Source: Astropecten irregularis
Taxonomy: Eukaryota > Echinodermata > Asteroidea > Paxillosida > Astropectinidae
Direction: 5' to 3'
Assembly (NCBI GenBank): GCA_963971285.1
Contig: OZ020247.1
Location: 13,412,614-13,476,613 of the forward strand
Length of the DNA: 64,000 nucleotides
Part shown: positions 2,998-61,490 of the stretch, in pieces
Layout of the letters: every line of letters starts with the position of its first letter
Position numbering within the stretch: the first letter of the stretch is position 1
Program-made: the position numbers and the translations under genes
Notes under the pieces: generated by a model
Told to the model about the DNA's origin: nothing
Databases searched by the model: none
What the model saw: the letters and a program-made list of their open reading frames with translations, nothing else

Positions 2998-3516
2998 GTG
3001 ACTTTGACATATTCCTTGATCAATCATTCTTGAAAGACTCCAATTTAAACATGATGTTTTATAAGAATCAGCAAGTATACCACTGCAAAAAGGGTAACGT
3101 TACACAGATGTCCCCGAACCATGGGGTATTTGCTTTTACCTTATTATCTACATCCAAAGCGGACGTAACGTTACAGAAACTGGAAAAGCTATAGTTCTTC
3201 CACACTTCGTGAACAATGTCATGTGGAAAAACCTTGGTATGATGGATGGGCTAATAAGGAAAGGCAACTTTGCAGACAGATGGCCTGTTCAAAGACGCAC
3301 CTAAACCACTAATTAAACTAAAGTCAGACAGGATGTCGGTGACCGCGGGGCATTATTCCAAGCACGACGTATAAATTATAGAACCAATTATAAGTGGATG
3401 ATGTAAGATGACTTTAATAATAGTACGACGCATTTATACATCATTGTGTGTTTTCTCGTTGGTTTTATAGAAACCTTCATTTCTGTGTCCTTAATTTCCT
3501 CAAATATACACTTGGC
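2998..3516. other. non-coding DNA, nothing recognised
   Basis: No gene, RNA or clear repeat boundary is seen between two MITEs. Reading frames are short and unrelated to known families. Confidence 0.5.
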
Positions 3517-3940
3517 TATACAGGGTGCCCCCAAAACAAAAACGTAACACTTGTTTCGAGAACTATTATATGAAAATTAAACTGTTTGTCACTTCAAGAT
3601 TCAGATATGTGATACAGCTATGTCTTGGCTATCACCATGTTTGAGCAAAATTTGACTAAAATTTAGTGAAATAACTGGACTGAATTACCCAACCTCAAAA
3701 CCCGATTTTCATCTTTTTTTCATCCACCTTATGTGTGTATTGGCCACTATGCGTGTTTTCCTTGCAAATTTGTTCAATTGGTCATAATTTAGCCAATTTC
3801 ATCCCCAATATGCTTAAATTGTACATGGTGATAGCCAAGACATGGCTTTATCATATATCTTAATCTTGAAGTGATAAACAGTTTAATTTTAACATAGTCC
3901 CGACACAGTGTTGCGCTTTTATCTGGAACACCCTGTATAT
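3517..3940. mobile_element. MITE with TATACAGGGTG inverted ends, copy 1
   Basis: The left end is TATACAGGGTGCCCCCAAAA and the right end GGAACACCCTGTATAT, its approximate reverse complement. The two flanks inside (a block reading ACTTCAAGATTCAGATATGTG and its mirror TCATATATCTTAATCTTG) extend the inverted repeat well inward, so the element is a near-palindrome. A second copy lies at 5629-6019. There is no coding capacity. Confidence 0.75.
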
Positions 3941-13693: not shown

Positions 13694-13896
13694 CATGATT
13701 AATTTGGCCTAGAAAAAAAAAATGGATGAAAATTATGGTATCGACAATTCTTTATAATTAATTTTAACTGGTATACTTGTATGTAGATTTTCGAATATTC
13801 CTGGCGGATAGATGCACGCTTTCTATACACAAGCACTAAGCTGATTCAAACTGCTCACCAACCAAACATTATCGGCCTTAAATATATAAAAATGCT

Positions 13897-13946
13897 TGGA
13901 GTTAGGAGTGCCTGACGTTTCGATCCTAGCAGGATCTTTCTCAAGA
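13897..13946 (-). ncRNA. hammerhead-ribozyme-like remnant in a dispersed repeat
   Basis: On the minus strand the sequence reads GAUCC-UGCUA-GGAUC (stem II hairpin), then GAAAC, GUC and AGGCACUCCUAACUCCAA. Hairpin, GAAA and the GUC cleavage triplet are in the order of a type I hammerhead. The CUGAUGA box is decayed to UUCUUGA and the 5' strand of stem I is missing, so self-cleavage is unlikely for this copy. Related copies are at 29229, 30512, 46630, 57065 and 59200. Confidence 0.5.
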
Positions 13947-43700: not shown

Positions 43701-46700
43701 CACTGTGGCTGTTTATCACTATTTTCCCATAAAGTGGGCACCATATGGCACTGGGAATTTCACAGATCAAAAATAATTTTGGTCACTGGATAGATACAGC
43801 ATTTCAGGCAGAAACATTTTAACTGTATGTTTCTCCTATCACAATCTCTATACCCTGTAAGTTATAGGCAAATTTGTGGAGATTTCTGTTTCGGTATGCT
43901 ACCAAAGTATGATGTTACCTTTAACTGGAAGAGAATTATGCATTGTAATATTTTATGGACCATTATTTTTCTATTTCACAGAACCAGGCAGGGAAACAAA
44001 GATCTATGGGCGTAATTTCTTCATTGTGATACCCCTCCGTGGAGGTAATCCGGAGAATGGATCTTCTCTTCAAATTGGCTGTGTTTCTTGTCCTGGGTAA
44101 AACATTTTTGGAATTAATTTAGATTTTGTTAACAATCTGGTAGCTTTTTACTCAATTAATGTAGGTATGTTTTCAAGGTTACCCCCCCCCCCTTTCTCAT
44201 AACAGTTGAAATATATATGCTGACTGAGAGTTGTACAATCTTGTACGATGTAATTTCTAGTATTCAGGCATGCTTTCTAACTTTCATAAATTTACTGGAG
44301 TGGGATTCGAACCGACGACCTCCTGAATACCGTACAGGCGCTCTACCAACTGAGCCATCCAGCCCTACATGTATGTTGGTGGTCAATTATCTTTGTCAAT
44401 TTATTTGACATTATCAAATAACCATGCACAAGGGAAACTGACTGAAATTTGTGTTGCAGCATTGTTGCGCATATCGATGAAATGATCCTTGGGATATAGC
44501 GGTATGTGAGTGGTTTCATGGCTTCTGACTGCCAAACGAACAAAGATAATTGACTACTATTAGGGACACCACCAAAGTAAGCTCAGTTGGTAGTGCCTGA
44601 CCGCCTATACTGTATTTTGGAGGTGGCTGGTTCGAATCCCGTTCCAGTCCAATTTTCTTTGTTCAACTTTCATTTATTTCTTCAGCAGGGAATTTGCCTC
44701 CTTGACAAAAATGCATTGAAGGTGCATTGCAGAAATCTCTAACATTATCTAGATACATGTATCCACATGAAAACCTGTTACTGTCCCAAATGACGGACAG
44801 ATTTGTGTTTTCTTTCAGCTCACAAGCAACAGGCAGCATTACACCTTTATGGAATGGGTCTCTGCAAGCTTTCACCGCAAGCCCAACGGCCTCTGTTTTG
44901 CTGAGTGCCTTCGAGCCCTTCTACAGCAATAAGACAGCGGTCCTCAACATCACATCAGATGCTGACATAACGGTTGCCGTCATTCTCAAGATGAGCAGTG
45001 GTACGCTCAGCGCATACACCGCAGTCCCTACGACGGCATTAGACAAGTACTATCCAGTTGTCTCCAACCCTGCCGGAGAGAATAGCTTGTCCGAGCTGAC
45101 GGTGTTGGTTTACCAACCGGACACAGATGTGCGATTCGATTCACAAGATAAGAATTTGACAGTGGATGGCAACCCCCATGATTTGCAGACCGGGGAATCG
45201 GTGACGTATCGAACAAACAAAAACTTCAAGGGAGGTAAACTCATATGTCACAGGCCAGTCACTGGCCTTGTCGAAACGAGATGCAAGTCATCCGTGGAAG
45301 GGTGTCCACATTCTTTGAACTCCCTTTTTCCTTTTGTTTCCTTGGGGACAAGATATGCCGCAATGCCTGTCGGTAAAGAGCAAGACAGGCTCGGGAATAT
45401 CTTACATATTTTTGGCATTTTTGATGAAACCGACATTAATGTGTCGATATCAGGTTCGAATGAAACCTTGAGACTCAATAAAGGCAAGGATTTTGAGAAA
45501 GGCTTTGACCACATGGTGGTAGCCCAAGGTTCGAAACCCTTCCTAGTCCTTCACGTTATCAACAAAGGCATTCCTATCCAGGACATGGCAGCAGTAACAG
45601 TGCCGCCGATGGAGCAGCTGACTCGACAAACAATGACCTTCTCTACGTTCAGCGACATCGACCCCAAGAAGGACGTTCAGAATTACATCAGCATCACTGC
45701 ATCATGCAATGACATTGAAAACATCTGGATACAGCCTAATTCCAATTCCAAATCTAAAACCACCTCAACATCTACGACGAGAACCCCAAAAGTCGGCGAA
45801 ATCTGTGGGAAGTCTGTTCCACTCCTGACTAAGGGCACGCACACCATCGGTCCGAGCCCAGAATCCCCAGATGCGGCGTACTCGGCTATTCTGTACGGAG
45901 CGACCGATACGGGCGTCTTCGCGCACATTCTTGCCACGGAGCTCTTCCAGGTAATCTGCGGGGTCAGTAGTACCCAGGAGGTGACACTCTGCCCTCCGGA
46001 AACACCTCTTCAAGGAACCACCGTCCCACCGACCTCATCATCTGCATCCAGCATGCCGGTATCCCCCACTGCACACAGGAAGAAGCATACGAGCAACGCT
46101 GGCACAAGTAAGTCTCTTGATTCTGAAATTTCTTAGACAATGAAAGAGATATTTATTACTCAGAGATGCAACTGATGACCAATGCTCTAAAGAAAATCTG
46201 AAAATGACTGTTATGGCTAGTGCTGTGTAGATACGCAGCACGATCTAAGGCAGTGCCGCAGAAGATTTTAAAGTGAATATGATCAAAGGAGACTTGAAAA
46301 TAAATTGTACAATTCAAAACATTTGAAGGGGAAAAAATCGGAATTAGGGTGAAAAAAAAACTGGTTTCAAATTAAAATCTGAAAGTTGCTTACTCGGCAT
46401 TAACCTCAAAACTACGGAAGTGTATTTAGGACATAATGGAAATATTGTGCTCCAATATATTGCCCGGGGCGGAATAGCAGGTCCCAAATTTATTTGTAGT
46501 CATGTCCTAACATGCCTAAATACACTTCTGTACAAAACCGGTTTTCAATACATATACTAAAGTAATAAACTACTGCAAACTGCTCATCAGCCAAAATAAC
46601 GACCTGAAATTTACAAAATGCTTGGAAATGTTTCGATCCTAGCAGGACCTTTATCGAAGCCCTTCGATAAAGATCCTGCTAGGATCGAAACGCGTCAGGT

Positions 46701-49083
46701 CCTCATAACTCCAAGCAAAACAGTTTTCAGTCGAAGTATGATAAAAAGTCTGTTGGAGAGTGTCATTTGACTGAGTAAGGAAAATGGGACATGACCTCTC
46801 ATTATTGCCACAGTATTTCTGAAGTCTTTTCTCTTTTATTTTTGATCTTTTAAAAGAGTAAAACAAATTTTGGTCGTTGTTTTACTAATTTCTGGATAAA
46901 TACACCATTTCAGGCGGAACAATTTTAACGGTATGTTTCTACCAGCACCATCTTTATACCCTGTAAGTTATACGAAAATCTGTGAACATTTCTGTTTTGG
47001 TGTCTTACCAAAGTACATGTATGATACTACCTTTAACTACACAAATCCACAACTCCAGAGGCCAATTTCATAAAACTGTTAAGCACAAAAATTTGCTAAG
47101 CATGACATTTCTGTCTTAATAAAAACAGGGTTAACAACCAAATTTCCAAGTGTTGTGTATCACTTGTGATTGTTCTTTGGCTGTTGTTCGCTGACCATGA
47201 ATATCAAATCGAATGTTCAATGGTGGTTTGTTTTATTGGGCGAGACATTTTTGTGCTAAGCAACATTTTGTGCTTAAAACAGTTTTATGAAATTGGCCCC
47301 AGATCATCCATGATGCTAAACTCTGGAGTAGACATTATTAACTAGAAAATCCTTTCACTATGGTCTTTTTACAGTAGCTGCTGTGATTGTTTTAGTGATA
47401 AGCATCGTTGCTGGCATAGGAATTATTGGCTTCTTTGTATTTCGTTACTGCAAAGGGTGAGTATATGGGCTTTCCTATTAAAAGTAAGGACAAAAAACAA
47501 AAATTAATGATCATCAAATAACCACTAGCATGACTATATAGGGAAAGTGACTGAATTTCTAAGTCATTGAAAGGTGAACAAAGAAAAATTGACTGGTGCG
47601 GGATTTGAACTGGCGACCTGAATTGTAACCATATAGGCGCTCTACCAATTGAGATATCCAGCCCAACGTTGGTGGTGTCCCTAAAAGTCAATTATCTTTG
47701 TTCGTTTGGCAGTCAGAAGCCATGAAATCACGCACATTTTAATTGATCAATGATAATCAATGACTTCCACTATGTCCACAGCAGGCGTGGTTCTACGGGG
47801 GGGCTTGGGGGGGGGGCTTGAGCCCCCCCCAAAATTATTTTGTCTAGCCCCCAAAAATAAAATGCAATTGAAAAAAAAATCTTGAAAATACTGGATTTTA
47901 TTCAGTTATTAAGCGCCAATTACATAAAAAACGTGTTGTGTGGGCTCTAATGTGCATGTTTTTCGACCCCTAATAAGATATAGCAGAAGCGAGCGTTAGA
48001 ACCCAAAATATTGGGTCTTCTAGCCCCCCCCCCCCCCCAAAAAAAAGTAATGGCTCTTCTAGCCCCCCAAAAATGTTGGCACTAGAACGGTGCCTGGTCC
48101 ACAGTTACAGATGTGGCTTTATTTCACCACCTGGGGAACCATATGATTTGTGATGGTGTACCATCTCTCTTTATAAACTAGGAGTGCACATATTATGCAC
48201 AGTTTGATTGAGTTTAATCAGTGTACAATGGTAATGCGCGGTATTTTTGAACGCTTGAGGGCGCTTCGAATTACTTCCGGGGGTCATTTGACAATGCCTT
48301 GTTCTTGTGTACCGCTGTGTCAGAAAAAAAAGTACATACGTGTCGTAGTAAAAATATACACTTCTATCGTACCCCAAACGCCAAAATTGTCCGTAAATGA
48401 CCTCTGCTCATTTGACAATTAACCAGACCGTACCCCGGAAGTAAATAAAGTTGTACACCTAACAGCGCCCTCATGCGTTCAAAAATACCGCGCATTGACA
48501 ATTTAAGACATAGCCAAGGGCCAAATAGCCCATTTGGCAGAGAACTGGTACGTTTTTCCGAGGGTAACAGGTTAGAATACTGTTCTGGTCCATTTTTCTT
48601 TAGCATCTGCTCACTAAAGGAAGGAAACTGTTTCTCCTTGGCCTAAAGCATGTGCGGGGTGCATGCTGTGGCCTGTTGTGTCCTACTCAAGGTCTTGTGG
48701 TAAATCTACAGATTGTGGGTTCGAATCCAGCCATGGGTTACGTCCTTAGGCAAGACACCTTGTGACATATTGCTCCTCTTCACCCAGGTGTAAATGGGTA
48801 CATTCGAGGGTATAGATGGCTGTGTGCCCTTGATTAGCCTTCATGCACTTTAAAGTAGCTGGGGATGTATACTCCCCAGGGAGTTGAGATTGTTTCAGGA
48901 AAGTAAATAATAGCCCAATGACCAGGGGATAACAGTTATACGCGCATATCTCACGTGGATTGTGATATGTGTAGGTTTATTATTATTATATGTCAACTTT
49001 TCTATTTCAGCCGTCAGTGGAGGCGTCTGGATGAATCAGAATGCGCAGAAGATCAGCCGATACAACTTCAGCCACTGGCGTGA
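40749..49083 (+). CDS. type I membrane protein with IgGFc-binding N-terminal domain
   Basis: Five exons: 40749-40851, 43982-44096, 44819-46107, 47375-47456 and 49011-49083. All introns are GT-AG with phases 1, 2, 1, 2, giving 553 residues. Residues 1-30 form a signal peptide (hydrophobic WIASCLTAMLVVLQGVNC). The ectodomain starts GRNFFIVIPLRGG and contains the pattern of the IgGFc-binding N-terminal domain, notably LNITSDADITVAVILK, YTAVPTTALDKYYPVVS and LTVLVYQPDTDVRF. A Ser/Thr/Pro-rich stalk follows (about 460-500). A single membrane helix lies at 503-525 and a 28-residue tail ends QLQPLA. The domain is known from mucin-like IgGFc-binding proteins; here it is alone on a membrane anchor, which suggests a surface adhesion or recognition role (inference). 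The start is the first of two adjacent ATGs; the frame is open further upstream. Confidence 0.9.
40922..41287 (-). mobile_element. MITE family 1 copy in intron 1
   Basis: The left end ATTAAGGTAATATTAATC has a small insertion before CATACTTTGGTTTTTATC. The right end AAAGTATGATACTACCTTTA is intact. It sits about 70 bp after the intron 1 donor of the receptor gene. Confidence 0.85.
41829..42341. mobile_element. MITE, 'GGGGCCAATTTCA' family, interrupted copy
   Basis: Left part TTGAGCTGCTTAAGCACA through GACCGAATACAAGTCAAAA, right part GCAGTAAACATCACATGAAA through GCAGATGAAATTGGCCC. The two halves are continuous in the copy at 39981-40207. The break holds a 276-bp insertion. Confidence 0.8.
41954..42229. 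mobile_element. insertion with 9-bp target duplication
   Basis: The insertion is bounded by AGTCAAAAG on both sides (41945-41953 and 42230-42238); the uninterrupted paralogue has a single copy. Its sequence is CpG-rich, includes TATTTTTGAACGGCTGCG (related to the ends of the 48233-48496 element) and ACATGTACATGTACGTAC runs, and ends with a G-run. No clear terminal inverted repeat is visible. Confidence 0.75.
42476..42843. mobile_element. inverted-repeat element with AGGCCATAAAA ends
   Basis: The left arm AGGCCAT, A-run, TTGTTGTATTGGCGTAAC is mirrored by GTTACGCCAATACAACAA, T-run, ATGGCCTT at the right. The interior has GGGTAGGGCGGGCGGAT and GGTCGGGCGGG blocks and long T-runs. It is intron 1 sequence of the receptor gene. 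Confidence 0.85.
43179..43505 (+). mobile_element. MITE family 1 copy within a local tandem duplication
   Basis: The left end TTAAAGGTAGTATCAAACTT follows GCAGGAAGAAAAATCAAATT. That same flank precedes the next copy at 43584, so flank plus MITE were duplicated. The centre is deleted after TTTTTGATCTTTTAAAG. Confidence 0.85.
43584..43924 (+). mobile_element. MITE family 1 copy, rearranged, before exon 2
   Basis: It begins TTAAAGGTACTATCAAACTT, is deleted early, and in its second half switches to the opposite orientation (TTTCTCCTATCACAATC, ACCCTGTAAGTTATAGGC). It ends TACCTTTAA only 57 bp before the exon 2 acceptor of the receptor gene. Confidence 0.8.
44284..44440 (-). mobile_element. tRNA-derived SINE, type 1 (minus), in intron 2
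   Basis: The plus strand shows GGATTCGAACC (B box reversed) and GCGCTCTACCAACTGAGCCA (A box reversed), then CATCCAGCCCTACATG. The tRNA-like head is well preserved. With the plus copy 80 bp downstream it forms an inverted pair. Confidence 0.85.
44522..44680 (+). mobile_element. tRNA-derived SINE, type 1 (plus), in intron 2
   Basis: CTGACTGCCAAACGAACAAA and GGACACCACCAAAGTAAG lead into AGCTCAGTTGGTAGTGCCTG (A box), then GGTTCGAATCC (B box) and the tail CCAATTTTCTTTGTTCAAC. It is similar to 14031-14125. Confidence 0.85.
46630..46691 (+). repeat. palindrome containing two hammerhead-like stem II hairpins
   Basis: A 62-bp inverted repeat (31-bp arms, one mismatch) begins GTTTCGATCCTAGCAGGACC and ends GATCCTGCTAGGATCGAAAC. 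Each arm holds the GATCC-TGCTA-GGATC-GAAAC hammerhead-like core. The right arm continues GCGTCAGGTCCTCATAACTC, the cleavage-site flank. It lies in intron 3 of the receptor gene. Confidence 0.85.
46802..47035 (-). mobile_element. MITE family 1, partial copy in intron 3
   Basis: It starts inside the element (GCCACAGTATTTCTGAAGTC), crosses the centre TTTTAAAAGAGTAAAAC and ends ATGATACTACCTTTAA. The left end is missing. Confidence 0.85.
47058..47300. mobile_element. MITE, 'GGGGCCAATTTCA' family, intron 3
   Basis: The ends AGGCCAATTTCATAAAACTG and TTTATGAAATTGGCCCC, with internal TGTGTATCACTTGTGATTG and GGCTGTTGTTCGCTGACC, match 1889-2129 in reverse orientation. Confidence 0.85.
47571..47735 (-). 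mobile_element. tRNA-derived SINE, type 1 (minus), in intron 4
   Basis: The tail GGTGAACAAAGAAAAATTGA precedes GGATTTGAACTGGCGACC (B-box region) and GCGCTCTACCAATTGAGATA (A-box region, plus-strand view), then CATCCAGCCC-like sequence and CCAACGTTGGTGGTGTCC. The far end is TCGTTTGGCAGTCAGAAG. Confidence 0.85.
47790..48095. mobile_element. G/C-homopolymer element (possible inverted-repeat transposon)
   Basis: The left end GGCGTGGTTCTACGG followed by G-runs faces GCACTAGAACGGTGCCTGG at the right, a loose inverted repeat. Blocks TCTTCTAGCCCCCC and CCCCCCAAAAATGTTGGC recur, and a related fragment lies at 41327-41420. The G7-G10 runs could form quadruplexes in the intron 4 RNA. Confidence 0.6.
48233..48496. 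mobile_element. 264-bp inverted-repeat element, AATGCGCGGTATTTTTGAAC ends
   Basis: The left arm AATGCGCGGTATTTTTGAAC, continuing GC-TTGAGGGCGCT, is matched by AGCGCCCTCATGC and GTTCAAAAATACCGCGCATT at the right. The inner ACTTCCGGGGGTCATTTGAC is also mirrored. It is in intron 4 and non-coding. Confidence 0.88.
48655..48990 (+). mobile_element. tRNA-derived SINE, type 2 (plus), in intron 4
   Basis: The B box GGGTTCGAATCC is followed by AGCCATGGGTTACG, CTTAGGCAAGACACC, TTGCTCCTCTTCACCCAGG, GTAAATGGGTACATTCGAGG and CTCCCCAGGGAGTTGAGATT. It is the same order as the minus copy at 4718-5002 and ends about 20 bp before the exon 5 polypyrimidine tract. Confidence 0.85.
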
Positions 49084-55571: not shown

Positions 55572-58500
55572 TCAGTCGACCAGCATGAAATGCCTGTTGG
55601 TGGTGCTGATGACCTCGCTCCGTTCCTCCAGCCTTGTCAGGGTCAGTCTCACGGTGTCTGCCGTGATGTTGCGGAAGTCGAAGTGAGACGCTCGCAGCCT
55701 GTCCATGACGTGCAGGTAATGACAGCCATTCTCATCTGGGAATTCATGACGCAGATAGGAGACAAGGATAAACAAATCACTCACACCTAGTATAATGCAA
55801 TGGGACTTTTTATGGGAGACTTTGGAAAACCGGTCTTTAAGTCAACAGTGCACGCGTACGCATGCGCAAAACAATGCGCATATGCTCACAGTGCACGACT
55901 GCACGTGCACTGTTCTCCAAAGTCTCCCATTATGACCTCATGATGATACAGAAATGGAATACGTTTAGCTCGATCCTAAGTTTGCATGATTGAAATGCTG
56001 GTCCATCCAGTGATCGCATAAGTAGGGGAATATTTCACGCACTTCAGGTACATGTATATCCATGCGTTATACAGTGGTGAAATCGCAATAGCCACTGCAC
56101 TAGCCAAATTCCTAAAATGCAGGGTACGTAGAGGACAAGCGTAGTTCGGCGGGTTTGCATATATACATGGTAGCATATATACATTGATTGGCGGGTCAGA
56201 CCCACGAAATACGGGTCACTGTTTGCCACACGTTTTTTTCCTGTGGTAAGTGTGGTATCCTGAATACCACAATACACCACAGTCGGTTTGTATGGTAATG
56301 CATGGTTTATGATCCAGTCCCAGCCCCCTGTGGAGACTGTGGTAGCTCTTTTCTTGTGTGGTAGGTGTACAAGGTTAGGCTCAAAGCAAGTTTGATCTGT
56401 ATGAAAAAATTTGCTCTCACCATTACAGGGTTTGGGGTTGGAGAGGTCAGGAGATTTTACACACATTTCAGAGTGTTGGACTAATTATTATACCTTCCCC
56501 ATCTTTGTCTTTGCGTTGGTCAACTTGTATGAACAATTAATCAGAAAGTGCCTGAGAGTGTGGAATTTTTGTATTGTCATGTAACCAAGATTCTTCTAAT
56601 TGTATATTTGATCGGACACAAAAAAAGCAAAGGAAATAAAAATCAGCAATGATGAAGCTGTACTTGCTATGAATTATTTCTTCTCAGGCCTTTTGACTGT
56701 TTTTGTTTGTCCAGCGTTGTTCAAAATGAACTGTTCATTTTTAGTAATCATCTAGTGATATCGAAATAATCTCCTTTCATCCATGTACATTGTATGTCTA
56801 TATGTTGTGAATCGTGTGGAATTTTTCATACAGACGTACATTTTTTTAGGCGGCAGTCCTTCCGGAGAATCTTCAGAATCTTGCGGTCTAGTCTCAACCT
56901 CTGTTCTTCACGCACCACCTGAAGAACGTAAACAACAGTACATGTACTTTAAGAAAGATTTGAGGCTTTGCATGGTGACTATAGGTATGTGGATAGGTTT
57001 GCAGAAACATCATGTAAGAATCGTTTGTACTTTCGCACTTATATTTGCTTCGCACTTCTCGTAAGGTCTCAACGTTTCGACTAGCCTGCTCTCGTCCTCA
57101 TCAGGAGACAGTACTTTAACTTTATAGAGCTTGAATCATATTGATGTTCTGCTGACCATTTCATTTTGCCTCTATCTTTGATTTCATACTAGTTCTTCAC
57201 TTTGCAAAGCCTACTAGTGGCTGGCTCTACCGAAATGAATCACATCTGAGAATGCCTATTTACTACTTATGAGCCGTTCAGAATAAAGAGAACTCATAAC
57301 ATGTCATGAACAAATTGGATGCTCAGATGAACGTATCTCAACAAAAGGGATGACATTGACCAATGACAAAAACAAAATCTGAAAACAACTGACAGGGGGC
57401 ATACAAAATCTGAACTCTGAAAATCTCATATATTTTTGCAGACAGCCTTTGAGGAAAACAATCTGAAATGAAATCCAGAACAAAAAAGTCTGAAATCAGA
57501 TAAAAATTGGAGAAATCTCATCCGTACAACAACACAGCATGCTGAAGACCTCCTCAGTTAACCACATTCATCTTTAGTATGCACTCTTGTCATTCATGTT
57601 GCTAACTCAGTTTTTCAAATTTGCAACTCATGCCTCATTTTCTCAGAGCCAGTCATAATTTACCTCGTACATGTCTTTACCGTTGCCACTGCAGCACACG
57701 AAACCCTCTCTGTCCAGTTTCTGCACTGCTTGCCTGATGACGCTGTGGATTTGCTTCAACGAGGCTGCTCCGTTACCAAGCCTCTGTGGTGGAACAAGGT
57801 ATAAAGATGATTCATATGATGTCAGCAATGGAACAATAATTGGCAATTCTCTGTAGTGTGACAGTGCCTTGTATTTAGCGTGTAAGTTTGTGTTATGGGT
57901 GAGTACCGCATGCAAAATGCATAAATTCCACAAGCTCCTTTAAAGATTGGTCGGTAAACAGCTCCAGCTGCACTTTAAATTCTTGCGCATGATGCTGCAA
58001 CACACCGGCATGACAGGACACAAATACACCAAACATGGCCGTCTGCTGCAAATGGTGTATTGGCCAATGGACCAAGAACACTCTTAAGCCCAGCTCATTC
58101 CTCATATCAATTTGGAAAATGAAGCAAATGTTCTTGCCTCTATTAGAAGAGACAAGCGCCTATAGATTGTTGTGTCATCAAAATTTGCTTTGTGCTATTG
58201 CAATTTGCAGGAAGTAGTGAAGCAGGCTTTACTCAAAAGAAGGGCAAAGCAAAGCAAGACTCTTTTGGAGTATGATTCATTTGCAAAGAAGAACCAATCA
58301 AAGTGGGTTCAATTCAGCACTCCAGCTTGCAAGGAAGGATAATTAGCCTCCCACATAAAAAGTAAATATACTCACATGATGTCTGTATTCTAGACACGGC
58401 CCAGATGCTATCTCCATCACAGGCTCAAGCATTTGGAGTTCATTCAGGTAGAAATTGCTGACTTTGTTCGATTTGTCGTCTAGGTAACTCCGAAGAAAAT

Positions 58501-61490
58501 CATACAATCTGTCGATCAACTGTGCCTAGAAACACAAAGAAACAATTTACCGGTATATAAGATTAGTATCACCTTCAACACATAGTGCTCGATTCGTAAA
58601 ACAATTCTGTTTCACAGAGTTATGAAGGATAACCCATCGTATTCTTCTATGTGGGACTGCAATGCATCATAATTCCTATACGATTGATCATAAGTTATGA
58701 TGAATTTGGCAAAATCGACCTCATAGTAGTTTTTAAAACTTATGAAGGTTCTTTGCCATCCTTGAGGGATCGAGTTAACTGGGAAGGAAAAAAAGAGGCT
58801 CTCAACTTGAAGCAAGGAATCATCTTTGATTTCCCACGGCTTTTCCTTTAATAATATTCTTCACCTCTCTCTTCAAGCCAGTCTCTTTCTCAAGAGACTC
58901 CAGACGAAGTTCTTTCAGCGCGTGGCTGGGGAGGATGAAGGGCGGGTCGTAGCAACTCTTGTAGAGTCGAGGCAGCTCCTCCATGTTGTAGATCTCTGAT
59001 GCACAGGCTGGGTCTTCCAGTTTTTCTGAAAGATTTGAATGACTCTGATTAACAGCGAATAGGGAAGGCTTTTCAAAATAAATTTTTGTTTTATTCTCAG
59101 GTGTTAAAACACACAAAATTAAAATATTTCAAAGTAAGTATTAAACTTCTGCAAACTGCTCAAAAAGCAAAAGATCAACCTAAAATATATAAAATGCATA
59201 AAGTTAGGAGGGCGTGACGTTTTGATCATTGCAAGATCTTTCCCAAAGGCTGTTGACACTTCGATCCTTGCAGGATCTTTCTCAAAGGCTGTTGACACTT
59301 CAATCCTTGCAGGATCTTTCTCAAAGGCTGTTGACACTTCAATCCTGACATGACCTTTCTAATAAAAAGGATTTCTCAAAGCCTTTGAGAAAGATCCTGC
59401 TAGAATTGAAACATCAGATCCTCTTTTAATTAACTCCAAACATAATTTCAAAGTAGTTACCGGTACATATCTTGTCCATGTTGACAATTGATGAATGATG
59501 GATAAGGTAATGTAGGTATAAACAATGGTTTTCCGATGGTTTGAAATGGACTGGTGGGACCAGGGGGTCAATTTCACCAAACTCATCACAAATTACTATC
59601 AATGGTAGAACTTATGATGCATTGCAGCCCTATATAACTCAAGTTACGATCGTTCATAGGGCTTCGTGAAATCGACTCCTGGCCATATATTTCTTGTGAA
59701 AAGGAGGGATTCATACACCAAAAGACTCACTGAAATATGATGCGGATACCTCCTTTTTGCCCCAGTAACGTTTCACACGACCCTTCACATGGATCGTGTC
59801 CCCGAGGTCCATACGTGGGAACGGTTGGTCTTCGTCAACACCGTCTGTATCAAACAAAAGAGAGATCTTTATGTTGAACACTATTGGTTCCAGCTAGGAA
59901 CCTCTTCACAAGACTCCAAGGATACTATAAAGCATATAATAAAAAACACAACATGAAATGTTTTCTGCACAAACAGTACTGTACCTTTTTTTATTTAGAT
60001 ACAGGTACATGTACATGTTTGAAATTTGATATTTCTGACTACCTTTTTCATTGTCTGTCTCCTTTGGCTTCCAACAGCAACAATTGATCACTCCTGTGCC
60101 ATCGTCAACTGCCAGAAGAGAACAATATAGTGGAAATTGGAAATTGTTATAAAAATGGTTGGGGCACACTTTTGGACTCATTCTCATTTGAAGAACTGCG
60201 ATTGTGCACCATCAAGTGAGGGATAATAAATTGTGCAAGTTCAGTGTAAAGCAACCATCACAAATCGTGCCCCGGCTTAGAAAAACGACCCAATTTAACT
60301 TGGAATAAACTGTGCAAGCTTCTACAAGACGCAGGAAATTGCGGGTAAAAATTTTGAAAATGACAGAAATGTTGGATCTACAAAGAGCAACTGAGACCCC
60401 CTGGGGCAAATTTCACGGTCATGCTTAGCATAAAGATTGGCTAACCAATGTAACCATGAAATGTTCATGTGTTGTGTATCACTTGTGACTTTTCTTTGGC
60501 TGTTGTTCGCTGACCATGAATATCAAATGGAGTTTTTAATGGTGGATAGTTTCATTGGGCAAGATATTTTTGTGCGAAGCAATTTGTTGTGCTTATAGCA
60601 GGTCCATGAAAAAGATAGATAGATAGATAAAAACTTTATTGTCCCACCAGGGGAAATTAATTTGACCTTTGACATAAAACATAAAAAATACACACATTAT
60701 TTAAAATAAAACATAAACAAATACACACATTGTTTTTGAAATTGGCCCCTGTTCAACCTGCCACATGCCGGTACAATCAGTAAGCAGGCTTCCACACTCA
60801 TGTCATTGGATGTCATTCTGAGATGTTGCAAATAGAGAACCTCCATACTAACCTCCATACTGATGCATGCGAGGCTTCTCTTCAACTCGCACCACCCAAC
60901 CCACGATGTCTACTTTGTAGATGGGATGATTCTTATATGCAAATGCACCTGTGCACAAAGGTATAAATAAGACAACAAAAACAAATTAGAACGAGTCGGT
61001 TAGTAGGTGTCAGTGTGAGCACAAATACATTATAAATGCCAATTTGCTTCCTGGTTAAATACTGACCAAAACTCTAAAATCTTAACTTCAAAATCTAAGA
61101 ATAACACAAATGTCGCGAACATGTTCGGATATGTTCGGAACGCACACTTGGTTGCGACTGCTTTTCAGCTGAAAATTAGTAAGCATCAATTATTTAACTG
61201 CTTAATTGGACCCGGTGGCTGGTAACCCAGAGTATAATGATATACATACATTATAAACTATCGGTGCTTGGTGAATTTACGTGCTTAGCAGAGATCTTTA
61301 ATCTTTAATATGAAATGGGTATTTGTCCTTCCAATGGAACGTTTCAATATTTACCTTCACCAGTCGGATAGTCCATCATCTGTAGAATGTCTGCGACATA
61401 TAGTTTGGCAAATGCCCTATATACGGGGTCCATGTACCAGTACCGTTTGGGGATATACTCAAAGCTCCCCATCTCTTGCTGATCAGGCAT
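55572..61490 (-). CDS. STN1: STN1, CST complex subunit (telomere replication)
   Basis: Nine exons (5' to 3'): 61355-61490, 60853-60948, 60043-60108, 59731-59844, 58865-59025, 58376-58525, 57664-57783, 56840-56918, 55572-55735. All are GT-AG, with phases 1,1,1,1,0,0,0,1, giving 361 residues (human STN1 is 368). STN1 pairs with CTC1 and TEN1 to bind single-stranded DNA and support lagging-strand fill-in by DNA polymerase alpha at telomeres and stalled forks. The N-terminus has DPVYRAFAKLYVADIL. The OB fold follows (NHPIYKVDIVGWVVRVEEK, DDGTGVINCCCWK at 79-91, GDTIHVKGRVKRYWG). YNMEELPRLYKSCYDPPF links to the C-terminal winged helices (SLKQIHSVIRQAVQKLDREG; NGCHYLHVMDRLRASHFDF), ending STTNRHFMLVD. 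Exon 8 is small but matches the expected linker (VVREEQRLRLDRKILKILRK) and its donor is GTACGT. The chosen ATG is the first in the exon. Confidence 0.95.
55812..55930. mobile_element. 119-bp MITE, ATGGGAGACTTTGGA ends
   Basis: ATGGGAGACTTTGGAAAAC at the left and TTCTCCAAAGTCTCCCAT at the right form an ~18-bp inverted repeat. The interior is rich in GCGCA/TGCGC and GTGCAC. It lies in the last intron of STN1, 77 bp upstream of the last exon. Confidence 0.88.
57065..57110 (-). ncRNA. hammerhead-ribozyme-like motif with intact core
   Basis: On the minus strand: GUCUC, CUGAUGA, G, GAC-G-AG...CU-A-GUC (stem II with one G-A mismatch), GAAAC, GUU, GAGAC. GUCUC and GAGAC pair as a 5-bp stem I. CUGAUGA and GAAA are exact, and GUU is an allowed NUH triplet. 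The ACGU-like minimal stem III is as in hammerheads of Penelope-like elements and retrozymes. One extra G next to CUGAUGA makes the stem II register uncertain. It lies in intron 7 of STN1 on the sense strand. Confidence 0.6.
59200..59445 (-). repeat. 39-bp tandem repeats derived from the hammerhead-like repeat
   Basis: About three units of GTTGACACTTCGATCCTTGC plus AGGATCTTTCTCAAAGGCT lie at 59250-59345. They are flanked by a TTAGGAGGGCGTGACGTTTT unit on the left and an inverted unit (GAAAGATCCTGCTAGAATTG) on the right. Each unit contains the GATCC/GGATC stem II motif. The repetitive minus-strand frame 59119-59337 is not a gene. It lies in intron 4 of STN1. Confidence 0.85.
60403..60749. mobile_element. 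MITE, 'GGGGCCAATTTCA' family, interrupted, in STN1 intron 2
   Basis: The left end GGGGCAAATTTCACGGTCAT, core GTGTTGTGTATCACTTGTGA and GGCTGTTGTTCGCTGACC, and right end GAAATTGGCCCC match the family. It is broken near the right end by a LINE tail. Confidence 0.85.
60609..60735 (+). mobile_element. LINE 3' tail inserted in a MITE
   Basis: A GATA microsatellite followed by AAAACTTTATTGTCCCACCA and GGGGAAATTAATTTGACC lies between the two parts of the MITE, with TGAAA at both junctions. This motif, with its tetranucleotide end, resembles the 3' end of LINE families in fish and marine invertebrates (from memory). Orientation is presumed from the GATA tail. Confidence 0.6.

Follow-up and report, generated by a model that had tools for sequence, protein, structure and literature searches.

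A hammerhead-like motif in an STN1 intron of Astropecten irregularis is probably the 5' end of a short Penelope-type retroelement copy

Does an intron of STN1 in Astropecten irregularis carry a ribozyme able to cut the pre-mRNA of its host gene? The initial annotation of the window (the whole stretch of 64,000 nucleotides analysed here) had described a hammerhead-like sequence on the sense strand of this gene, with an intact core, a paired stem I and a very short stem III, and had suggested that cleavage could occur within the intron. The letters on which it relied are present. CTGATGA, GAAA (57078-57075) and GTT (57073-57071) lie on the minus strand in type I order, and GTCTC (57109-57105) pairs with GAGAC (57070-57066) as stem I. 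The strand is also as described: the motif is flanked on either side by a minus-strand open reading frame with a Pfam STN1_2 match, at 55575-55841 (E 6.8e-8) and at 57646-57939 (E 0.033, a match below the curated cut-off), so that the motif strand is sense to STN1. Read on the minus strand from 57109 to 57066, the sequence divides into the following parts.

57105..57109, minus strand: GTCTC, 5' strand of stem I (from the sequence)
57098..57104, minus strand: CTGATGA, core (from the sequence)
57097..57097, minus strand: extra nucleotide at the junction of core and stem II, G in the window copy (from comparison of copies)
57079..57096, minus strand: stem II, GACGAG, loop AGCAGG, CTAGTC (from the sequence, folding and comparison of copies)
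57076..57078, minus strand: GAA, conserved core nucleotides preceding the place of stem III (from the sequence)
57072..57075, minus strand: ACGT palindrome occupying the place of stem III (from the sequence)
57071..57071, minus strand: H17 (T), with predicted cleavage between 57071 and 57070 (from the hammerhead fold)
57066..57070, minus strand: GAGAC, 3' strand of stem I (from the sequence)

This anatomy supports the hammerhead-like character of the motif as regards the core letters, their order and stem I; it does not do so for stem III. Only C and G separate A15.1 from U16.1, and hence the hairpin attributed to this place cannot close. The ACGT palindrome, the commonest form among the sampled copies, would need a second molecule or a second unit as its pairing partner, and two copies could in principle share a four-pair ACGU stem III. 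Two further features were absent from the initial annotation: the extra G at 57097, and a mismatch in stem II, where G faces A at the fourth pair (the commonest family form reads GACTAG).

How close, then, is the motif to a hammerhead? The window copy has the letters of the type I core (CUGANGA, GAAA and UH before the cut, in this order), and the core is intact in 48 of 110 sampled copies, with 19 further copies of the array at locus L006 omitted. In the usual hammerhead consensus, A9 directly adjoins stem II, with no nucleotide between. Here one nucleotide does intervene: it follows CUGAUGA in 683 exact copies and is missing from none, and among the 110 sampled copies it is G in 45, T in 44, A in 18 and C in 3. 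One molecule offers stems I and II only, instead of three stems, and the combination of the core, these two stems and no closed helix III is that of the stem-III-less Penelope-type variant. The check proposed by the initial annotation, a search with the Rfam hammerhead models, gave no hammerhead in the window at the gathering score and none even at E up to 5, which for this copy is one of the two outcomes that the annotation had jointly named as refuting. When ten loci were compared with Rfam, only the L006 array gave anything, namely two sub-threshold matches to Hammerhead_3 (28 bits for a gathering score of 48.5, E 0.047). A genome search with RF00163 returned 0 matches, as did its controls, and is hence uninformative. 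To our knowledge, the Rfam hammerhead models were not built for variants lacking stem III.

Folding and covariation bear on the same question. ViennaRNA, whose scoring leaves out tertiary contacts and protein help, favours a simple hairpin in which some of the core nucleotides are paired; the isolated window motif folds at -9.9 kcal/mol, versus -17.0 and -17.6 for two common family forms. With two copies it returns a long duplex, not a double hammerhead, and the ACGU pairing is worth only -1.7 kcal/mol. Covariation in support of the stems was not seen: at each of the 12 stem pairs, the six most frequent letter combinations included no double change. None of three letter strings taken from the motif turned up in the collection of papers searched. 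Because of the extra nucleotide, the lack of a stem III in cis and the lack of an Rfam call, we do not call the motif a canonical type I hammerhead; judging from its letters, we would file it as a minimal type I variant, with the stem-III-less forms of Penelope-like elements (PLEs). Both the extra nucleotide and the lack of a stem III speak against efficient catalysis.

The letters alone do not carry much weight. A loose hammerhead descriptor matched once in the window versus a mean of 0.11 matches per dinucleotide-shuffled window, and at least one match occurred in 11 of 100 shuffled windows; since shuffled sequence also produces such matches, the motif taken by itself is weak evidence. What makes it more than a chance sequence is that its 34-mer had no match in the 100 shuffled windows and that the genome holds thousands of copies. 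With up to 2 mismatches allowed, 5,281 places in the 476-Mb genome match a 21-mer taken from the motif, and 0 match the reversed control. The 64-kb window contains just one of these copies, and there the motif forms the 5' end of a 158-bp insertion, whose divergence from the family's majority sequence, made by hand, is 6.9% and which is composed as follows.

56953..57110, minus strand: short retroelement copy of 158 bp, long type (3' end ...CAAATCTTTC) (from the sequence and family alignment)
56953..57065, minus strand: element body 3' of the motif, including a 3' tail of ~35 nt (from family alignment)
56944..56952, no strand: target-site duplication GTACTTTAA at the element 3' end, 9 bp (from the sequence and end analysis)
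57111..57119, no strand: target-site duplication GTACTTTAA at the element 5' end, 9 bp (from the sequence and end analysis)

To describe the family we used 80 stretches: 40 with BLAST matches, including the window's own, and 40 places of the exact 21-mer, taken from the first 100 places listed for contig C1 with array copies skipped. The sample is therefore biased by both routes of choice and selected for the 3' half of the motif. Its ends were analysed in 75 loci aligned to the majority sequence, leaving out four loci with arrays and one without a good anchor. The 5' end lies at positions 1-4, i.e., in the 5' strand of stem I, in 58 of the 75 loci. The 3' ends concentrate at two sites ~35 nt apart, 122-130 in 28 loci and 156-159 in 22 (together 50/75), and the shorter one falls in CCGATCCACATACCAATTG, which is AC-rich. 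Of 53 single-motif loci, 7 (one of them the window copy) are flanked by direct repeats of at least 9 nt, and permuted pairings gave none; one of the seven, L017, is weaker, its repeat lying 8 nt off the 5' boundary. Two further duplications were recognized by eye, in L089 and L119. No clear duplication was seen in 46 of the 53 single-motif loci, nor in 20 of 27 head-to-head pairs.

A single copy was found in 47 of the 80 loci. Adjacent copies are arranged head-to-head in 27 cases versus tail-to-tail in 2, and repeats of at least 8 nt at the outer ends flank 7 of the 27 head-to-head pairs, with 0.06 expected (at L021, which is among the seven, the repeated sequence may belong to the element tail). 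Neighbours on the same strand number 31, of which 30 lie in arrays (20 in L006, 5 in L080, 3 in L039 and 2 in L011) and 1 in L082. Such tandem arrays of the motif occur in 4 of the 80 loci: at L006:1526-2654 the unit is ~54-55 bp, with 21 copies counted, and at L080:332-652, L011:897-1103 and L039:914-1136 it is ~55, ~80 and ~59 bp, respectively.

Short duplications, head-to-head arms and a tail on one arm are the marks of a Penelope-like insertion, and all three are found here, the duplications in a minority of loci (7/53 and 7/27). The initial annotation had pointed to PLEs as one of the places where hammerheads with so short a stem III are found, and a Penelope-like origin is likely right, since the ends, the head-to-head pairs and the duplications match published Penelope anatomy. 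We consider it highly probable that a 158-bp non-autonomous Penelope-type copy, with the motif as its 5' end, was inserted in the STN1 intron with a 9-bp duplication. The likely route is the following. A CCAAT/TATA-like piece located just upstream, and kept in a few copies, would start an RNA that begins with the motif. A Penelope-type reverse transcriptase with a GIY-YIG endonuclease would cut the DNA, and copying would begin internally, at either of two RNA positions ~124 and ~159 nt from the 5' end, and continue as far as this end. One cDNA would yield a single-arm copy such as the window's, and two cDNAs joined by their ends would yield head-to-head pairs. In active elements, the stem-III-less motif might act as a dimer or with the help of a protein.

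The putative promoter can be recognized in some loci. The sequence directly 5' of the motif is common to ten loci, to which L120 adds an eleventh, and nearly the whole upstream segment is present at 92-98% in L009, L014, L015, L029 and L120. It includes CCAATCA plus TATAATTATAAGG (first base 36 nt upstream of GTCTCC in the query sequence), and a genome search with the segment gave at least 41 matches, with 40 of 317 candidates scored. We infer that it is the promoter of a pLTR, in which case the RNA would begin right at the motif. We also considered whether copies start at the predicted cleavage site and rejected this idea: with up to 2 mismatches, the pattern for the start of the body is found at 3,553 places, and with up to 3, a longer one extended into the 3' part of the motif is found at 3,061, so that copies starting at the cut are in no large excess. 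As there is no such accumulation, the template of most of them was probably an uncleaved RNA, or a circle.

Could the motif nevertheless be a working hammerhead that cuts the STN1 pre-mRNA and regulates the gene? Its core letters are intact, in the right order and on the sense strand. Yet a stem III cannot form in cis, stem II carries a mismatch, an extra nucleotide follows CUGAUGA, Rfam gives no match, and the motif is one among thousands of dispersed copies. Since the window holds a single copy, the 64 kb offer no second copy with which it could form a dimer in cis, and this, together with the mismatched stem II, makes self-cleavage of the STN1 pre-mRNA unlikely on the sequence. We thus find the suggestion of intronic cleavage unsupported and regulation of STN1 very improbable; the window copy is most likely an inert passenger. 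That a candidate gene-specific ribozyme becomes a retroelement copy is an ordinary outcome. A further question is whether the 5' end of this retroelement RNA is a plain hairpin, either a hammerhead look-alike or a dead hammerhead. The extra nucleotide shared by all 683 exact copies, the missing cis stem III, the lower-energy alternative folds for one and for two copies and the lack of an Rfam match to the window at the gathering score would all fit. Against this, all core residues stand in order between stem I and a stem II that, in its commonest form, has 6 bp; hammerheads made up of stems I and II have been published for PLEs, and one of them cleaves once protein is added (PMC11167929); and a viroid hammerhead with an extra nucleotide in its core is on record (PMC3705267). 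We take the plain hairpin as a serious possibility, while leaning against it.

The tandem arrays raise another alternative, an animal retrozyme, a small element propagated as circular RNA that its hammerhead produces by cleaving and ligating itself. Such elements are short and non-coding with a type I motif, as here, and a circle read once from a 3' priming site would also give copies beginning at the motif edge. However, the published metazoan retrozymes have canonical type I hammerheads, which in amphibians have a weak helix III and act as dimers, and tandem repeats of 150-450 bp (PMC7229834), whereas the array units in the four loci are only ~54-80 bp, most of the sampled loci (47/80) hold a single copy, and the ends show the Penelope pattern. 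A retrozyme therefore seems improbable to us.

The head-to-head pairs raise an additional question: how are they produced? We classified the arms of 24 pairs, taken from loci with at most 3 matches, as short (117-134) or long (143-159), classes that were set after the data had been seen. Both ends could be classified in 16 pairs, and all 16 consist of one short and one long arm; the other 8 comprise 5 with a long arm and another type, 2 with a short arm and another type and 1 with two arms of other types. Single-arm loci (n=47) include 21 short, 16 long and 10 other arms, from which half of the pairs would be expected to be concordant. A hand-computed chance of 16/16 discordant pairs is 0.49^16, or ~1e-5, for classes drawn post hoc. 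The junctions between arms vary from locus to locus, with differing truncation of each arm and with filler. Arm identity is 0.904 within 17 pairs versus 0.896 between loci (829 comparisons), and values so close do not decide between one template and two.

Since the junctions vary and the arms end at different sites, we prefer two cDNAs, one for each target strand, as the source of the pairs. In its complete form, the proposal is that two cDNAs from opposite target strands start at two template sites ~35 nt apart and have their far ends joined, that the template is uncleaved and that the ribozyme plays no part in insertion. The two start sites would account for the short-plus-long composition of the 16 classifiable pairs, and the whole motif kept at the RNA 5' end in the copies would point to an uncleaved template and to a ribozyme not involved in insertion. 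Its odds are lowered by the indecisive arm identity and by the proposal made for Adineta vaga, where palindromes at inverted junctions are read as the result of self-priming on an antisense template (PMC3846280). Self-priming could have produced the pairs seen here in place of two target-strand cDNAs, but the junctions are locus-specific, with unequal arm truncation and filler, and the arms end at different 3' sites in 16/16 classifiable pairs; we hold it to be quite conceivable without favouring it. The complete two-cDNA proposal is tentative and, with all its parts taken together, rather unlikely. If true, the family would amount to thousands of natural experiments in Penelope integration. 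Many palindromic copies could also suggest a MITE or a fold-back DNA transposon, given the head-to-head pairs and the inverted repeats around the window copy. This is hardly credible, because the junctions between arms are not constant across loci, the end repeats range from 8 to 15 nt and single arms occur with duplications of their own.

Which element might supply the enzymes? The genome carries PLE open reading frames with reverse transcriptase and GIY-YIG domains (RVT_1 E 1.4e-6, just below the curated cut-off). In the search for an autonomous parent, neither the motif nor the body was found in 39 GIY-YIG stretches (L041-L079), most of which span only 1.5 kb past the endonuclease and miss the 5' leader. 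These stretches include some that are not PLEs: L041 and L073 are UvrC, and in L042 and L047 the domain lies in TRIM-like frames. Long frames with reverse transcriptase and GIY-YIG mark a PLE family at L072:5128-8469 and at other PLE loci among L044-L070, with one pair of this family in tandem at 3,267 bp. The leader of the L072 family has a second hammerhead-like hairpin, whose core is different, UUGAGAA (in L045, CUGAGAA), and which includes the palindrome ACGCGU and then a C. Relics of this leader motif lie in the window at 59179-59329 (minus strand, in tandem units of ~39 bp), 59380-59412 (plus), 13876-13944 (minus) and 46661-46717 (plus).

Other GIY-YIG loci have a different nature. On contig C24, stop-free frames of 545 and 526 aa at L074:3898-5532 and L075:3474-5051, with GIY-YIG domains ~6.5 kb apart, join B-box zinc fingers to a C-terminal GIY-YIG in a TRIM-like arrangement; one has a RING match below the cut-off and the other an NHL match. 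By eye, their GIY-YIG end resembles the PLE endonuclease, and they are possibly a host gene with a captured Penelope endonuclease. The frame at L073:6014-8875 encodes a UvrC-type excision nuclease (UvrC RNase H, UVR, GIY-YIG and HhH), so that its 24-kb contig, C94, may be bacterial DNA in the assembly.

The closest parallels in arrangement come from Adineta vaga (PMC3846280). As in the present family, inverted pLTR pairs occur there, head-to-head is the most frequent arrangement, one arm is shorter or tailed (an inverted pLTR is 37 bp shorter than full ones, and a 31-bp tail is optional on one inverted pLTR), duplications are short (8-10 bp in several insertions and absent from others) and a TATA lies in a pLTR, in A. 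vaga together with an initiator-like sequence. The A. vaga pLTRs differ in being attached to open reading frames and low in copy number, whereas here short copies occur in thousands, and the word hammerhead does not occur in that text. The Poseidon element PAc of Anolis offers parallels in mechanism (PMC11167929). Like the present family, it has stems I and II of a hammerhead near the element start; in PAc this hammerhead does not cleave without protein. As would be the case here, PAc reverse transcription begins within the RNA, at a stem loop rich in AC, and each of the two DNA strands is cut and then extended. In PAc, cleavage by the hammerhead is dispensable for insertion in vitro. It differs in being autonomous, with a ribozyme that overlaps its own frame. 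The sites at which Penelope-type elements start reverse transcription and their use of both strands have so far been poorly known, and a family with many short copies, clear ends, duplications and pairs may help to show them.

The metazoan non-LTR retrozymes share with this family a small size, the lack of coding capacity, a type I motif and multiple copies (PMC7229834). Minimal type I hammerheads are closer still. They number thousands in many animal genomes, are mostly dispersed, with some in PLE pLTRs, usually do without the non-conserved helix III nucleotides and might function in dimeric form (PMC7761336, which cites Cervera and de la Pena 2014 and Lunse, Weinberg and Breaker 2017 for the minimal PLE hammerheads). 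The core, stems I and II, the lack of a real helix III, the thousands of dispersed copies and the possible dimeric action are alike in the two (PMC7761336). Hence, minimal hammerheads of such a type have already been published, and the present family is new. It differs from them, as they are described in that source, by the nucleotide that follows CUGAUGA in every exact copy counted, and this addition to a hammerhead without stem III provides a ready set of natural variants for testing activity.
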